A stretch of DNA of 28,475 nucleotides from a virus. The notes under the pieces were generated by a model, which was not told the origin of the DNA, made no database searches, and worked only from the letters and a program-made list of their open reading frames with translations. The stretch is taken from the IMG/VR virus record IMGVR_UViG_3300032893_002468, positions 1-28,475 of that record; one strand, 5' to 3'. Positions within the stretch are counted from its first letter, which is position 1. Every line of letters starts with the position of its first letter. A program made the translations under genes and the position numbers. Below are positions 5,767 to 11,974 of this stretch, in pieces.

Positions 5767-6160
5767 TTTCTAATATTTTTAATGCAGTTTCTATACTATT
5801 GGGTGCCAATGACATTACAGCCTTGACATCAGTAAATTCATTAATATCGTCCACCTCAACATTATCATTATCCATATGTAAAATAAATCCCTTATCTTTA
5901 ATAGATAACCATTTAATTTCCATATTTGTAAAAATTATATGTTCATTTGGAATATTTAATTTTTTAGCAATTTCATAAAGATCTTTATTATATGTTGGAA
6001 ATGTTAGAGGATAATGTACTTTATGATACATTTCAGTACTCCACCTTGCAGTAACAATCCAAATTTCATAGCCTAGAGATGAAAGATCTTTAGCAAAATT
6101 TTGCATATAATCAAATTCTAGGCATTCGTCAAAATCAAAACTTATTTTATTTTTTTTCAC
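5753..6160 (-). CDS. HAD-superfamily phosphatase-like protein, 135 aa
   Basis: Small HAD-like protein with the four family motifs recognisable: motif I ISFDFDECL with D9 and D11 (nucleophile and acid/base positions), motif II WIVTARW with T37, motif III Lys in IKWL (K83), and motif IV HMDNDN with D97 and D99. Retention of the second Asp of motif I favours a phosphatase over a dehalogenase or ATPase. T4 polynucleotide kinase has a phosphatase domain of this superfamily, so with the separate P-loop kinase at 8099-8503 this could be the 3'-phosphatase half of a split end-healing enzyme; that is inference. Other small HAD nucleotidases remain possible. It overlaps the response regulator gene by 14 bases. 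Confidence 0.75.
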   Translation of the reverse strand: MKKNKISFDFDECLEFDYMQNFAKDLSSLGYEIWIVTARWSTEMYHKVHYPLTFPTYNKDLYEIAKKLNIPNEHIIFTNMEIKWLSIKDKGFILHMDNDNVEVDDINEFTDVKAVMSLAPNSIETALKILENGKN

Positions 6161-6857
6161 CTTCTATTTTTTCATATTCTAGAATTAAACCCACTCCTGA
6201 AATATTATTAATTGTTAAACATATACCATTGGTATTAAATGATTTTCTTATATAGGTTATAAAAACATCCATAGATCTTCCTGCAAAATAATCTGTTTTT
6301 CTCCAAACTTTTTCTAAAATTACTTCTCTTTTAATTATTTTGCCGTAATTTAAGGCAAGTATTTCCAATATACCTCCCTCTTTTGGTGAAAATTTCTTTA
6401 TTTCTTTATCATTATGAAATAAAATTCTTCTACTTGGATCATAAACACATTGACAGCTATCCTCGCCAAAATATATTTTGTCTCTGGTTTTGGTTGTTAG
6501 TTTCTTTAAAGTAATAAAATTTTTATTATAGGAAACAATATTGTTTATAACAATTTTTACAAAATTATTATAGGGTTCTAATACAGGCATTTGAATATCT
6601 GCTTGTGAAGATGTTAAACTTCCAATTTCCAAAGAAACAACGGGAATATAGGGAGTGTTTTTCTTTATAAAATCTACACCTTTTTTGAAAAAAGGAAAGC
6701 TACTTTCTATTACAAATGCATCTACATCTGAAAGTTTTATGTGTTCAAAAAATGTGGTTTCAATCTTAGCATTAACAATTTCATGATTTAAGTCCTTTCC
6801 AACCAACCAAAAAGTGTTATAAAGATCTATGTTTTCTGTGCATATTGCAATTCTCAT
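6147..6857 (-). CDS. Atypical OmpR-family response regulator (phage-encoded)
   Basis: Two-part transcription regulator. Residues about 1-110 look like a degenerate receiver domain: MRIAICTEN at the start, a beta strand VDAFVI ending in E51 where receivers carry the phospho-accepting Asp, and E94-P95 where the conserved Lys-Pro is expected. Residues about 125-230 form an OmpR/PhoB-type winged helix: FSPKEGGILEILALNYGKII, the REVILEKVW segment, then GRSMDVFITYIRKSF (193-207) and a GVGLILEY wing. The recognition-helix sequence is very close to that of Bacteroidota regulators, so host acquisition is likely. Loss of Asp and Lys suggests phosphorylation-independent action. A promoter-like box (6877-6885) and an 11-base-period direct repeat (6929-6948) lie upstream, suggesting autoregulation. 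Confidence 0.85.
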   Translation of the reverse strand: MRIAICTENIDLYNTFWLVGKDLNHEIVNAKIETTFFEHIKLSDVDAFVIESSFPFFKKGVDFIKKNTPYIPVVSLEIGSLTSSQADIQMPVLEPYNNFVKIVINNIVSYNKNFITLKKLTTKTRDKIYFGEDSCQCVYDPSRRILFHNDKEIKKFSPKEGGILEILALNYGKIIKREVILEKVWRKTDYFAGRSMDVFITYIRKSFNTNGICLTINNISGVGLILEYEKIEGEKK

Positions 6858-6876: not shown

Positions 6877-6885
6877 TTAAATATA
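6877..6885 (-). promoter_or_regulatory. Promoter-like box upstream of the response regulator gene
   Basis: On the minus strand this reads TATATTTAA within TGTTATATTTAACC, 20 bases from the ATG of the regulator gene. It is close to the Bacteroidota -7 element TAnnTTTG and to near-identical boxes at 8961-8969, 9197-9204 and 10521-10530. No clear TTTG at the -33 position is present. Assigned by pattern only, in a very AT-rich genome. Confidence 0.4.
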
Positions 6886-6928: not shown

Positions 6929-6948
6929 GTTAAAGTTATGTTAAAGTT
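6929..6948. promoter_or_regulatory. Candidate operator: tandem GTTAAAGTT repeat with 11-base period
   Basis: GTTAAAGTT occurs twice, at 6929 and 6940, exactly 11 bases apart. This is the head-to-tail geometry known for OmpR/PhoB-family operators. It sits about 70-90 bases upstream of the phage response regulator gene, over the last codons of the glycosyltransferase gene. A copy matching at 17 of 20 positions lies at 9129-9148 in the divergent control region. Binding by the phage regulator is inferred. Confidence 0.45.
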
Positions 6949-7717
6949 AAAAACCTAAATTCTTTTTTCTTACATAATCCAAATCATAGCTAGTAAATGA
7001 TATGGGAAAAGATTTATTATCAAAAGGATATTCATATGGCCAAGTCATTCTCCATTGGGGCCCCCATTTTTGCGTAAGATATTCAAAATTAACTATATTT
7101 GCCGCATTTAATTTTTCAATTAACTCAGGCTCTCCTTTTTTTGTTTGTTCTCCACTTTCATAATAATTTGTTCCTTCACCGTGATAGTAAACTTTACTCA
7201 CACTATAAATTCTCTTAAGTGGATGATGCTTAATGCGCATAATATAATCTACATCTTCACCATAGGCAGGATAAAGATTTTCATCAAACAACCCATATTG
7301 TTTAATAACCCAGTCCTTTATGAGAAATAAATCCCATGCTCCATCCTTAAAATCTCCTTCACTTCCATGAACTATGCCAATTTCTGGATCTTCCGCCTTT
7401 TTAACCATTTCTTCTAAAAATCCTGGTGTAAAAGCCACATCATGATTAGTAATAATCCAATAGGGTGAATTCATGTAACATTTAATAATCAAATTCCATG
7501 CGCCTGAACACCCCACATTTGCTGGCATATGACATACCACAATTTTATTAATAAATGGATGAGGAGTTGAAGCAATCTTATCCAATTCTTCAACCAATTG
7601 TCCTCTGCCATTATTATCAAATATCACAAAAATTTCTGTGGGAAAATCGACACTATCTACCAATCTTTTAACCCAATAGGGAGAATTTACTATGGCTGTA
7701 CCTATAACAGGTATCAT
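6947..7717 (-). CDS. Family 2 (GT-A) glycosyltransferase
   Basis: Single-domain GT-A glycosyltransferase of 256 aa. It begins MIPVIGTAIVNSPYWVKRLVDS, then has a nucleotide-binding core with ANVGCSGAWN (about 75-84), the DxD-equivalent WIITNHDVAFTPGF (about 97-110) and a later acidic motif, YGEDVDYIMRI, typical of the catalytic base region of family 2 enzymes. No membrane segment is seen, so it is probably cytoplasmic. Phage enzymes of this type glycosylate modified DNA bases, virion proteins or host surface sugars; nothing here decides which. It overlaps the 64 aa gene upstream as ATGA and precedes the response regulator. Confidence 0.85.
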   Translation of the reverse strand: MIPVIGTAIVNSPYWVKRLVDSVDFPTEIFVIFDNNGRGQLVEELDKIASTPHPFINKIVVCHMPANVGCSGAWNLIIKCYMNSPYWIITNHDVAFTPGFLEEMVKKAEDPEIGIVHGSEGDFKDGAWDLFLIKDWVIKQYGLFDENLYPAYGEDVDYIMRIKHHPLKRIYSVSKVYYHGEGTNYYESGEQTKKGEPELIEKLNAANIVNFEYLTQKWGPQWRMTWPYEYPFDNKSFPISFTSYDLDYVRKKNLGF

Positions 7718-7908
7718 CTTACTTTTGTATTTAATGTATGCCTTTCAAAGCGAATTAACATATTGCATTGTTCACTTATGTTAAAAAGATAAAGTTCTCT
7801 TTTTATGGTATCTATTCTTTTTACTTGTACTAGATCACGCTTAAAATTTCTATAAACTCCGTTAATTTCAAGTTCCTCTACGGGAATAATTGGCAAGGTT
7901 TCTTTCAT
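7714..7908 (-). CDS. Hypothetical protein, 64 aa
   Basis: Starts at ATG 7908 and overlaps the glycosyltransferase start by four bases (ATGA), indicating coupled translation. The product is largely beta-strand by appearance (INGVYRNFKRDLVQVKRID, then RELYLFNIS), possibly a small SH3-like barrel. No family is recognised. Confidence 0.6.
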   Translation of the reverse strand: MKETLPIIPVEELEINGVYRNFKRDLVQVKRIDTIKRELYLFNISEQCNMLIRFERHTLNTKVR

Positions 7909-7928
7909 ATATAAATTTATTAAACTGT

Positions 7929-8102
7929 TTATTTAACATATATAAATTTCATGGTGTGAGAAAGATTAAATTCATTTTCTTTAAATGCATGATAACATTT
8001 AAGAGAACAAAAATCTTCTATCCAAACTTTAGGATAATATTTTAAATAATAAGACTCTTCTGTTTTTTCAAAATTTTTTCGGCAATGTTTACAAGTTTTC
8101 AT
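7929..8102 (-). CDS. Small zinc-finger protein, 57 aa
   Basis: A short gene starting at ATG 8102 and overlapping the stop of the P-loop kinase as ATGA. The product begins MKTCKHCRKNFEK and carries two Cys pairs, CKHC at residues 4-7 and CSLKC at 32-36, spaced like a treble-clef or TRASH/MYM-type zinc-binding fold. Translational coupling and the intact Cys pairs support a real gene despite the length. Its partner and role are unknown; proteins of this type usually bind nucleic acid or another protein. Confidence 0.75.
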   Translation of the reverse strand: MKTCKHCRKNFEKTEESYYLKYYPKVWIEDFCSLKCYHAFKENEFNLSHTMKFIYVK

Positions 8103-8503
8103 AGCAGTTTTATATTAAATCTATTTTTCATTGCTTCAATGGTTTCATTTGGCACATTATGTACATTTATATTGCCATGCCTATTTTCCACCACAATGGA
8201 AAAAACCATATAATCATATTTTGCAGCCATATCAAAATAAGGCTGCATTTCTTTTTCTGTGGTAAAAGTATTGGCAACAAATATTTTTTGAACACCATTT
8301 ATCATGTGAATTACCGTGTTATTCTGACACCAGAGATGTGCAGAGCCAAGTCTTGTTTTATCAAAATTGTATTTTCCATCCTGCATAAAAAAATTATCTG
8401 CAGATAACACAGGAAACTCATTTCCATAAGCCATTGCCTCTGCAAATTCAGTTTTGCCTGCGCCCGGAATCCCGCGAACTAATATCAACATTTTTTTATT
8501 CAT
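8099..8503 (-). CDS. P-loop nucleotide kinase, N4BP2-like polynucleotide kinase fold
   Basis: AAA_33-type P-loop kinase of 134 aa. Walker A GIPGAGKT is at 11-18, followed by SADNFF with D36, then KYNFDKTRLGSAHLWCQ (44-60), the block typical of N4BP2-like 5'-polynucleotide kinases, VANTF with N78, and VHNVPNETIEAMKNRF near the C-terminus as the Arg-bearing lid. Start ATG 8503 was preferred: it gives the 8-base ATG..TAA overlap with the upstream gene seen elsewhere in this genome, whereas an in-frame TTG at 8527 would overlap by 31 bases. With RNA ligase 1 in the same genome, a 5'-OH end-phosphorylating role is plausible; a nucleotide kinase role cannot be excluded. Confidence 0.8.
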   Translation of the reverse strand: MNKKMLILVRGIPGAGKTEFAEAMAYGNEFPVLSADNFFMQDGKYNFDKTRLGSAHLWCQNNTVIHMINGVQKIFVANTFTTEKEMQPYFDMAAKYDYMVFSIVVENRHGNINVHNVPNETIEAMKNRFNIKLL

Positions 8504-8939
8504 CCAATGATTTTTTAAATTCTTCAAGATTAATGGGAATTATTTGCATTTCAGCTCCGATGTTAAATATTTTTTTGGATGCCAAATCTTTAGCTTGAAT
8601 TGTAGGAATTTTTGATTTCTTTGTTTTATGGCCAATAAACATAAAAGTTTCTTTACATCCTTCCAAAGCAAAAATATCTCCTTTCTTTAAAAATTTGGGA
8701 TTAAGAGTAGGTTCAAGAACTGTTTCATCTCTTCCTACAATTGCTTTTGCTGTTGGCAATCCATGAAATTTTCCATAAAAAGAAACCACTACATTTTTAC
8801 CATTAAATTTACCTAGCCATTTGGTGCGTCTTGTTTCAAGAAATACAATTTTTTCTCCTGATACAAGTTCGATTACATCACCCTTGCTAACTAGCTTTGA
8901 ACCACCTTCATTAAAGGGAAAAAAAGTTTTAGTTTTCAT
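8496..8939 (-). CDS. Hypothetical protein, first gene of the left minus-strand operon, 147 aa
   Basis: Starts at ATG 8939, 22 bases from a TATATTTAC promoter-like box, and overlaps the kinase gene at its 3' end. The product looks beta-rich and basic, with two similar halves: KLVSKGDVIELVSGEKIVFLE and LKKGDIFALEGCKETFMFIG both have a K-G-D-(V/I) turn, so a duplicated SH3-like or small barrel fold is possible. No catalytic motif is visible and no family is recognised. Confidence 0.7.
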   Translation of the reverse strand: MKTKTFFPFNEGGSKLVSKGDVIELVSGEKIVFLETRRTKWLGKFNGKNVVVSFYGKFHGLPTAKAIVGRDETVLEPTLNPKFLKKGDIFALEGCKETFMFIGHKTKKSKIPTIQAKDLASKKIFNIGAEMQIIPINLEEFKKSLDE

Positions 8940-8960
8940 TATGTATAAATTTTAAGATAT

Positions 8961-8969
8961 GTAAATATA
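8961..8969 (-). promoter_or_regulatory. Promoter-like box for the 8939-6947 operon
   Basis: On the minus strand this reads TATATTTAC within GTTATATTTACATATC, 22 bases upstream of ATG 8939. The core TTATATTTACATAT is repeated exactly at 10521-10534 before another first gene of a transcription unit, which is the best evidence that it is functional. It resembles the Bacteroidota TAnnTTTG element. Confidence 0.45.
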
Positions 8970-9012
8970 ACTATATTTTTGGAAATAAACACAATTTTTA
9001 AAATAAAAAATT

Positions 9013-9099
9013 CATATAATATTACTATATCGCGTGCGGGCGAGCACGACTAGAGCTCTAGAGATATACATTCCTTGAATCTCTAGCCTTTATTATATG
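9013..9099. ncRNA. Candidate structured RNA or DNA element in the divergent control region
   Basis: A GC-rich island within the 269-base gap between divergent genes. An outer 9-base-pair helix is formed by CATATAATA (9013-9021) and TATTATATG (9091-9099). It encloses a hairpin CGTGC/GCACG (9033-9037 with 9044-9048, loop GGGCGA) and a hairpin CTAGAGAT/ATCTCTAG (9058-9065 with 9079-9086, 13-base loop). A 12-base palindrome CTAGAGCTCTAG (9050-9061) could compete with the second hairpin. No tRNA cloverleaf, hammerhead core or ORF fits. It could be a small RNA, a leader for either flanking operon, or a DNA site such as an origin; strand and function are open. Confidence 0.4.
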
Positions 9100-9128
9100 G
9101 TTCTCTCATTTTTGGTTTTAAACATTTA

Positions 9129-9148
9129 GTTAAATGTATGTTAAATTT
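9129..9148. promoter_or_regulatory. Second candidate operator: GTTAAAT repeated with 11-base period
   Basis: GTTAAAT occurs at 9129 and 9140, 11 bases apart, in a 20-base block matching the repeat at 6929-6948 at 17 of 20 positions. It ends 48 bases before the TATATTTG box at 9197. The first half also lies in an inverted repeat ACATTTA/TAAATGT (9122-9137 region). The likely binder is the phage OmpR-family regulator, by inference. Confidence 0.4.
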
Positions 9149-9196: not shown

Positions 9197-9204
9197 TATA
9201 TTTG
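9197..9204 (+). promoter_or_regulatory. Promoter-like TATATTTG box before the plus-strand operon
   Basis: TATATTTG is an exact match to the Bacteroidota -7 consensus TAnnTTTG. A TTTG is present at 9181-9184, but the 12-base spacing is shorter than the usual 19-20 to a -33 element. The box ends only five bases before ATG 9209, so if it is used, the 49 aa gene would be leaderless or translated from a minimal leader. Confidence 0.4.
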
Positions 9205-11253: not shown

Positions 11254-11974
11254 TTATAAAAAATATTATCTTAATGGAAATAAGTTTACATTTCAATTTA
11301 AGTTTAGCTTAGAATCTGTTTGGAATAATTATTTATATAAATTATCTATAAAACAATATAAAAAAATGAAGGCAGAAGAAATTTGTGAAGCCCTAGGAAT
11401 TGATCAATCTAAAATTTTAAACATATATCCCTATGGCTCTAGAGTTTATGGAACGGCAAAAGAATGGTCGGATTATGATTATGTTATAGTTTTTAAATCT
11501 ACTTTACCAAGTGGTGCATTTAAAGATAATGCAATTTCTTCAAAAAATAAAATGATCCAAGGTACATGCTATTCCAGAGCGGGTTTTATTGATGCTCTTA
11601 ATAACTATCAAATAAGCGCTCTTGAATGTTTTTTTCTTCCTGAAGATAAAATAATTCAAAAGAAAATGAATTTTTCTCTAAAGCCTTTGGATAAAAGAGC
11701 TTTGGTTAAAAATATTATTGCCACGGCCTCTTCATGCTGGCATAATGCTATTTTATCACATCAAAATGATAATGAAGAATTTGCCAAGAAAAATGTCTAT
11801 CATGCCATAAGAATTCTCCATTTTGGCTTGCAGATTTTAAGAGATGGAAAAATAACCAATTATGGAAGGATGAATGATTTTAAAGGTGAAGTTTATGGTG
11901 ATAAGGATTTTCATGTAAAAACATATTTTAACAAATTTTTAACATTAAGTGATAAATTAAAAGGATTACAATGA
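11246..11974 (+). CDS. Second Pol-beta-fold nucleotidyltransferase, 242 aa
   Basis: The active site motif is YPYGSRVYGT at 61-70, followed by SDYDYVIVF with metal-binding D76 and D78, the GSxxYGT...SDxD pattern shared with the RlaP-like enzyme at 4431-5573. The C-terminal half is helical (NVYHAIRILHFGLQILRDG), which recalls HEPN-like or substrate-binding helices of such enzymes. It starts inside the 76 aa gene and ends overlapping the RNA ligase start by four bases (ATGA), so it is translationally coupled to the ligase. This coupling is the best hint that it takes part in RNA end repair, perhaps by adding nucleotides. Confidence 0.8.
   Translation: MINYKKYYLNGNKFTFQFKFSLESVWNNYLYKLSIKQYKKMKAEEICEALGIDQSKILNIYPYGSRVYGTAKEWSDYDYVIVFKSTLPSGAFKDNAISSKNKMIQGTCYSRAGFIDALNNYQISALECFFLPEDKIIQKKMNFSLKPLDKRALVKNIIATASSCWHNAILSHQNDNEEFAKKNVYHAIRILHFGLQILRDGKITNYGRMNDFKGEVYGDKDFHVKTYFNKFLTLSDKLKGLQ

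Follow-up and report, generated by a model that had tools for sequence, protein, structure and literature searches.

Tandem TTTAACA repeats as candidate operators of an RprY-like phage regulator in uncultured Bacteroidota phages

The virus record IMGVR_UViG_3300032893_002468, a giant-phage fragment analyzed over its full length of 28,475 bases (hereafter, the window), carries two copies of a tandem direct repeat, site A (GTTAAAGTTATGTTAAAGTT, 6929-6948) and site B (GTTAAATGTATGTTAAATTT, 9129-9148), together with a gene for a putative transcription regulator of the OmpR/PhoB family. Comparison with related phages indicates, with high confidence, that both sites are real operators of the OmpR/RprY type, and the reading we favor, with a probability of about 0.6, is that the phage regulator binds these sites and controls itself. 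Under this proposal, a regulator of the OmpR/PhoB family (RprY-like) would occupy operators A and B as a head-to-tail dimer, via TTTAACA half-sites with a period of 11 bases, and the gene at 6147-6857 would encode such a regulator, with TTTAACATAACTTTAACA as its putative target sequence. This protein would read site A at its own promoter (autoregulation) and site B in the divergent region, where it would serve the leftward promoter at 9092-9099; in the relatives, it would serve a scattered regulon whose half-sites, near -61 and -50, immediately precede the -33 region. From the sequences, we infer the protein as the binder, activation as the consequence of binding, and autoregulation as the process. 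The principal features are as follows.

6929..6951, minus strand: operator A, with TTTAAC half-sites at 6946-6951, 6940-6945 and 6929-6934, the last two forming TTAACA-N5-TTAACA
6879..6885, minus strand: -7 box TATATTT of the regulator promoter, 43 bases past operator A
6147..6857, minus strand: candidate regulator of 236 amino acids, with a receiver-like N-terminal domain and an OmpR/PhoB winged helix
9129..9145, minus strand: operator B, minus-strand reading TTTAACATACATTTAAC
9092..9099, minus strand: leftward -7 box CATATAAT, 29 bases after operator B, with AAAAC in between

Spacing, placement and orientation of the repeat

Both repeats lie where the original prediction, made from the window sequence, had placed them: sites A and B agree at 17 of 20 positions and each contains GTTAAA copies 11 bases apart, with a third GTTAAA (6946-6951) abutting site A. 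The excess of such pairs (at most one mismatch) in the window is weak, 3 vs 0.93 expected, and 8 of 100 shuffles equal that count, so that the window statistics by themselves are not decisive; the third pair (11927-11943, minus strand) is located within a coding sequence. A far stronger signal comes from 12 phage contigs with a gene for the regulator (1.18 Mb in total, with IMG/VR contigs of up to 405 kb and 323 kb), a set of uncultured relatives whose genes are simple open reading frame (ORF) calls and whose sites, being those of related phages, are not independent events. In these contigs, the counts of TTAACA-Nk-TTAACA peak at k=5, with 51 copies, followed by 15 at k=4, compared with 0 to 6 occurrences, typically about 2-3, at most of the remaining spacings between 0 and 30 (11 at two spacings) and with a single occurrence at k=5 of the reversed control (TTTAAC backwards). 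The repeat is concentrated outside genes, rather than being as frequent in coding sequence as chance would have it: 41 of the 51 N5 sites are intergenic, and intergenic DNA accounts for 12% of the sequence. In nine other contigs, exact TTTAAC-N5-TTTAAC was found 29 times (three of these sites counted in two assemblies of one phage) vs one reversed control. A tandem operator with a period of about 10-11 bases is the arrangement expected of the OmpR/PhoB family, and the predicted operator geometry is thus borne out by a spacing that is strongly non-random across the related contigs.

The position of the repeat relative to promoters is equally constrained. In 24 of the 41 intergenic sites, a -7-type box (TATATTT, TAnnTTTG, CATATAA and similar boxes were scored) starts 29-33 bases past the second TTTAAC on the same strand, compared with 3 of 41 at the mirrored position and 152 of 7440 (2%) random intergenic positions. 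This same-strand bias over the mirrored place indicates that the motif is directional, with the promoter located downstream. The distances peak at 31-32 bases for TATATTT, 29 for CATATAAT and 33 for TATATAA; operators precede two -7 types, TATATTT and CATATAAT/TATATAA. The TATATTT(G/A) box, found 31-32 bases after the operator in 20 sites, agrees with TAnnTTTG, the flavobacterial/Bacteroidota sigma-A -7 box that spans -12 to -5 (PMC9723704). With the sigma-A box at this position, the half-sites therefore fall roughly at -61 and -50. A second type of promoter, AAAACTT-N13..15-CATATAAT, is present with or without an operator in many intergenic regions, e.g., L068 (G012:192377) and L041 (G009:58258); being unlike the host sigma-A box, these promoters may belong to a phage-specific sigma factor.

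Site B had been described as lying upstream of the rightward operon, in an orientation opposite to that of site A relative to transcription. Neither description holds: site A faces the regulator gene and site B, facing left, has a CATATAAT box of its own ahead of it, so that the two sites are oriented alike with respect to the promoters they face. Eight other operators, including the one in the same intergenic region of L001/G001, likewise have CATATAA exactly 29 bases downstream. The apparent opposite orientation arose because the rightward box TATATTTG (9197-9204) had been picked: the distances to TATATTT boxes, 43 bases for A and 48-51 for B, were numerically right but the box assigned to site B was not. 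The counterpart of operator B occupies the same place in L001 (1614-1630) and is degenerate in L002.

These observations leave little to be said for a chance match in A+T-rich DNA, for which one could cite the 8 of 100 shuffles that reach the window count and which is refuted by the enrichment of a single spacing, by the distance and orientation of the boxes, and by conservation at the orthologous regulator genes described below; we give it practically no weight.

The regulator and its own promoter

The winged helix of the predicted regulator is matched by PF00486 (Trans_reg_C; E 1.9e-11, 44.3 bits vs the Pfam cut-off of 26.2), as it is in G005, G007, G009 and G012; identity among the orthologues is 35-55%. 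For all 12 orthologues, RprY and Bacteroidota PhoB are among the best profile matches, far below the respective cut-offs. The best NCBIfam match, the RprY equivalog NF051850, reaches 51.1 bits vs a cut-off of 370 and covers the winged-helix part only; judging from these comparisons, the protein is RprY-like and not an RprY. In PHROGs, a single family matches, phrog_731, of unknown function, and in named phage records the regulator was found in one 5-kb fecal contig only.

In a structure model built from the 12-sequence alignment, the N-terminal part adopts the alternating strands and helices of a receiver fold, with a predicted local distance difference test (pLDDT) score of about 90 for residues 1-60 and 82.5 overall, the domain arrangement being uncertain (predicted template modeling score 0.51). 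The top Foldseek matches of this model are full-length OmpR-family proteins, including the phosphorylation-independent HP1043, RitR and CosR; sequence matches to known structures are mostly limited to the winged helix. Compared with ten host RprY proteins, residues D12, D13, D55, T83 and K105 are replaced, mostly by E, N, S/E, I and others, and none of the orthologues has Asp at position 55, so the receiver lacks the features of a phosphorylatable one. The recognition helix, on the other hand, is kept in the form typical of the family (RSMDVYIT(K)LR in the hosts, RSMDV(F/Y)IT(Y)(L/I)R in the phages). The regulator is thus a pseudo-receiver protein that has lost all the phosphorylation residues. 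With the usual phosphorylation impossible, its activity is probably set by the amount of the regulator, and the loss of these residues is consistent with a protein that is active independently of phosphorylation.

Of the 11 orthologous regulator genes in the related phages, 9 have kept an operator (at most one mismatch, same strand, within 130 bases upstream of the start), compared with 41 of 1224 genes (3.4%) overall; the binomial probability of 8 or more regulator genes with an operator is about 2e-10, with shared descent ignored. In a tenth case (L012/G007), the regulator belongs to an operon of two genes, and a canonical operator is found at the promoter of that operon. The promoter regions of the orthologues carry two pairs of half-sites (in L007, at -101, -90, -77 and -66 from the start codon) or their remnants, with the box at a distance of 53 bases, or 29-32 for the proximal pair. 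The window retains the distal pair at 43 bases from the box, compared with about 53 in L008 and L014, and its regulator promoter is thus short of about ten bases, i.e., one half-site turn.

The retention of the operator at the regulator gene makes the phage's own regulator the best candidate for the reader within the clade of the window. The original prediction had envisaged an autoregulated switch; the repeats at the orthologous genes support its autoregulatory part but not a two-state switch, and a small regulon with autoregulation fits the data better.

Promoters of the same type in phages without the regulator

The operator-promoter unit extends well beyond the clade of the window, into many unrelated large phages. 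Two circularly permuted and hence probably complete assemblies, G024 and G025 (236 and 234 kb), contain 21 sites and zero reversed controls, and many sites are present also in G332, G334, G032, G026 and G340. Across G024, G331, G332, G333 and G334, 80 of 85 intergenic sites have a box at 29-33 bases, a tighter architecture than in the window clade. Searches of G024 with PF00486 and phrog_731, and of G331 with phrog_731, gave no match while detecting the positive controls, and profile-profile comparison of the G024 and G331 ORFs revealed no hidden OmpR-like domain (best probability 12%). The sites are therefore not dependent on a window-type regulator everywhere. Two contigs, G333 and G338, encode another OmpR-like protein, of the phrog_731 type. 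Lak-A1, Lak-B1, isolate PAU and the uncultured LR756500 contain 0, 1, 0 and 1 sites, respectively; the scarcity of sites in the two Lak phages, in which no regulator was detected, speaks for the phage regulator as the reader. In G331 (L401-L409), G332 (L412-L415) and G024 (L264-L275), a hairpin resembling an intrinsic terminator is often located between the operator and the -7 box, such that the terminator of one gene would be interleaved with the promoter of the next.

Several observations weigh against the regulator of the window as the reader. Its own site A, at 43 bases from the box, falls outside the 29-33 range; the orthologue L017 lacks an operator at its gene; and the unit is abundant where this regulator was not detected, with 21 sites in G024 and 29 in G331. 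One alternative, which we consider improbable, is that the sites are read by an RprY/PhoP-type response regulator of the host, large Bacteroidota phages having placed near-perfect copies of the host operator ahead of their promoters and the phage regulator of the window clade replacing, boosting or competing with the host protein. In favor of such a host reader are the tightest architecture, found precisely in phages without a window-type regulator, and the wide distribution of RprY-family proteins, which are encoded in 50 of 60 host-class genomes at E <= 1e-60. Furthermore, TTTAACA is reported to comprise the most conserved bases of the DNA affinity purification sequencing (DAP-seq) motif of PhoP, a Bacteroidota response regulator, in Riemerella anatipestifer (583 peaks); this protein is also reported to bind unphosphorylated, with a Kd (dissociation constant) near 30-40 nM, and to bind upstream of its own gene (PMC9603813). 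This half-site also fits an RprY/PhoP-like phage protein as the reader, R. anatipestifer PhoP counting at most as a putative RprY orthologue, which is a further point against our reading. The literature on P. gingivalis RprY yielded no binding motif, and a search of the available literature for TTTAACA as a phage promoter motif returned nothing relevant.

Genomes of the presumed hosts themselves offer little support for a host reader. They are not enriched for the repeat (23 sites vs 43 reversed controls in 32.6 Mb), the full operator-promoter unit occurs 3 times in 296 Bacteroidota genomes, and no strong repeat was found upstream of host rprY genes. A unit that is nearly absent from hosts and common in phages is best described as a phage promoter class, and its conservation at the promoter of the phage regulator points to that protein within its clade. 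In phages that lack the regulator, host RprY-type proteins or phage proteins may read the sites.

Comparably doubtful, in our assessment, is the possibility that the regulator of the window is a repressor, with A as an autorepression site and B blocking a promoter. Many OmpR-family proteins both activate and repress, site A is one turn off the canonical position, and site B is situated upstream of the rightward promoter as well, at a distance of 51 bases. Nevertheless, the fixed distance places the operators just upstream of the -33 region, a position that is usual for the recruitment of RNA polymerase, and not over the -33 region or the -7 box, an activator pattern that makes activation more likely than repression.

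Somewhat less probable still is a reader outside the OmpR-like proteins, either an unrelated and unrecognized phage protein or a phage-modified RNA polymerase, with the OmpR-like regulator not being the main reader. This would account for the failure to find an OmpR-like DNA-binding domain in G024 and G331 by profile or profile-profile search and for the two different -7 types behind the operators, TATATTT and CATATAAT/TATATAA. However, a TTTAACA core repeated directly every 11 bases is typical for regulators of the OmpR type, and the motif is present alongside both kinds of OmpR-like protein, that of the window clade and the phrog_731 type of G333 and G338.

The phage regulator thus remains our preferred reader in the window clade. 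As a more tentative proposal, which we consider less likely than not, large phages of the Bacteroidota could share an undescribed, widespread type of promoter (TTTAACA-N4-TTTAACA, about 31 bases, TATATTT) that uses host RprY-type regulators, with the window clade and the phrog_731 lineages having captured such a regulator and lost phospho-control, and the window clade having placed it under its own operator; the promoter program would thereby be freed from host signaling.

Neighboring elements, known systems and implications

The remaining features of the divergent region are the following.

8940..9091, minus strand: leftward untranslated leader, with a G+C-rich patch (about 9029-9050) and CTAGAGAT/ATCTCTAG repeats
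8963..8969, minus strand: second leftward -7 box TATATTT (GTTATATTTAC), with no operator ahead of it
8496..8939, minus strand: first gene of the leftward operon behind operator B, 147 amino acids, no Pfam match
9197..9204, plus strand: rightward promoter box TATATTTG of the RNase H-like operon, conserved in L001 and L002

Operator B, inverted, lies 49-51 bases upstream of the rightward box in L001 and in the window (51 in the window), and with this promoter conserved, a second effect of B there is possible. The leader RNA behind site B has no Rfam match and, in the window, its folding shows no excess over shuffles (z 0.25), whereas in the relative G012 the leader forms a better fold than its shuffled versions (z -3.15). 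Transcripts from CATATAAT promoters open with a possible hairpin, UACYU...AGGUA (window 8940-9091, minus strand; L056:11587, L039:2879, L043:3133, L065:11880, L076:7674); in G012 and part of G005, no same-strand gene follows this hairpin, which may accordingly represent a small RNA. Behind several TATATAA promoters that are driven by an operator, there is a conserved stretch of non-coding sequence, TTGTGGTAAG...GAGTTACATCG (L042:9380-9680 in G009, L036 around 349039 of G005, L047 around 34645 of G007, L280:19635). In G009, this stretch precedes a TROVE (Ro60-like) gene (PF05731, E 1.7e-12), suggestive of a Y-RNA-like partner; an Rfam search of G009 found none.

The window also encodes an RlaP-type nucleotidyltransferase (PF10127; 4431-5573, minus strand) and a T4-type RNA ligase (PF09511; 11971-13110, plus strand), which by their domain content comprise a predicted RNA-repair set. 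No tRNA was detected in the window; G005 contains a cluster of at least 11 tRNA genes (340001-360000, L036) and, at 62605, a tRNA-like stretch directly after an operator-type promoter. A search of the phage collection found no close relative of the window. The closest named phages, by the clamp loader alone (42% identity), are the Prevotella Lak megaphages, which differ in that no regulator was detected in them and that their genomes of 540 kb each contain 0 and 1 operators.

Among the known systems of the Bacteroidota RprY/PhoP type, host RprY shares with the phage protein the recognition-helix motif YFxxRSMDV(Y/F)I. The phage protein differs in that it lacks a phosphorylatable receiver and scores 51 bits vs the RprY cut-off of 370; near-perfect sites at a fixed distance are a property of the phages and not of the host genomes. 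The atypical OmpR regulators HP1043, RitR and CosR similarly combine a receiver fold without a phosphorylation site with an OmpR-type winged helix, but are cellular genes with unrelated regulons; we know of no phage member of the phosphorylation-independent OmpR-family regulators. The Pho boxes of B. subtilis PhoP, which are TTAACA-like repeats about 5 bases apart, and those of E. coli PhoB are likewise head-to-tail hexamers with an 11-base period that precede promoters, sometimes as two pairs (as here in L007), although they function in other hosts and with other sensors; in E. coli, these boxes take the place of the -35 element, whereas the phage sites lie upstream of that region. By analogy with MotA of T4, an activator of phage middle promoters, a phage protein would serve its own set of phage promoters; MotA has a different fold, recognizes a single -30 box and acts by sigma appropriation.

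Transcription control in large uncultured Bacteroidota phages is hardly known, and a motif recognizable in the sequence itself reveals promoters and the strand on which they lie and supplies a candidate regulon for hundreds of contigs. The finding suggests that such phages either make use of a response regulator of the host or bring along a version of it that no longer responds.

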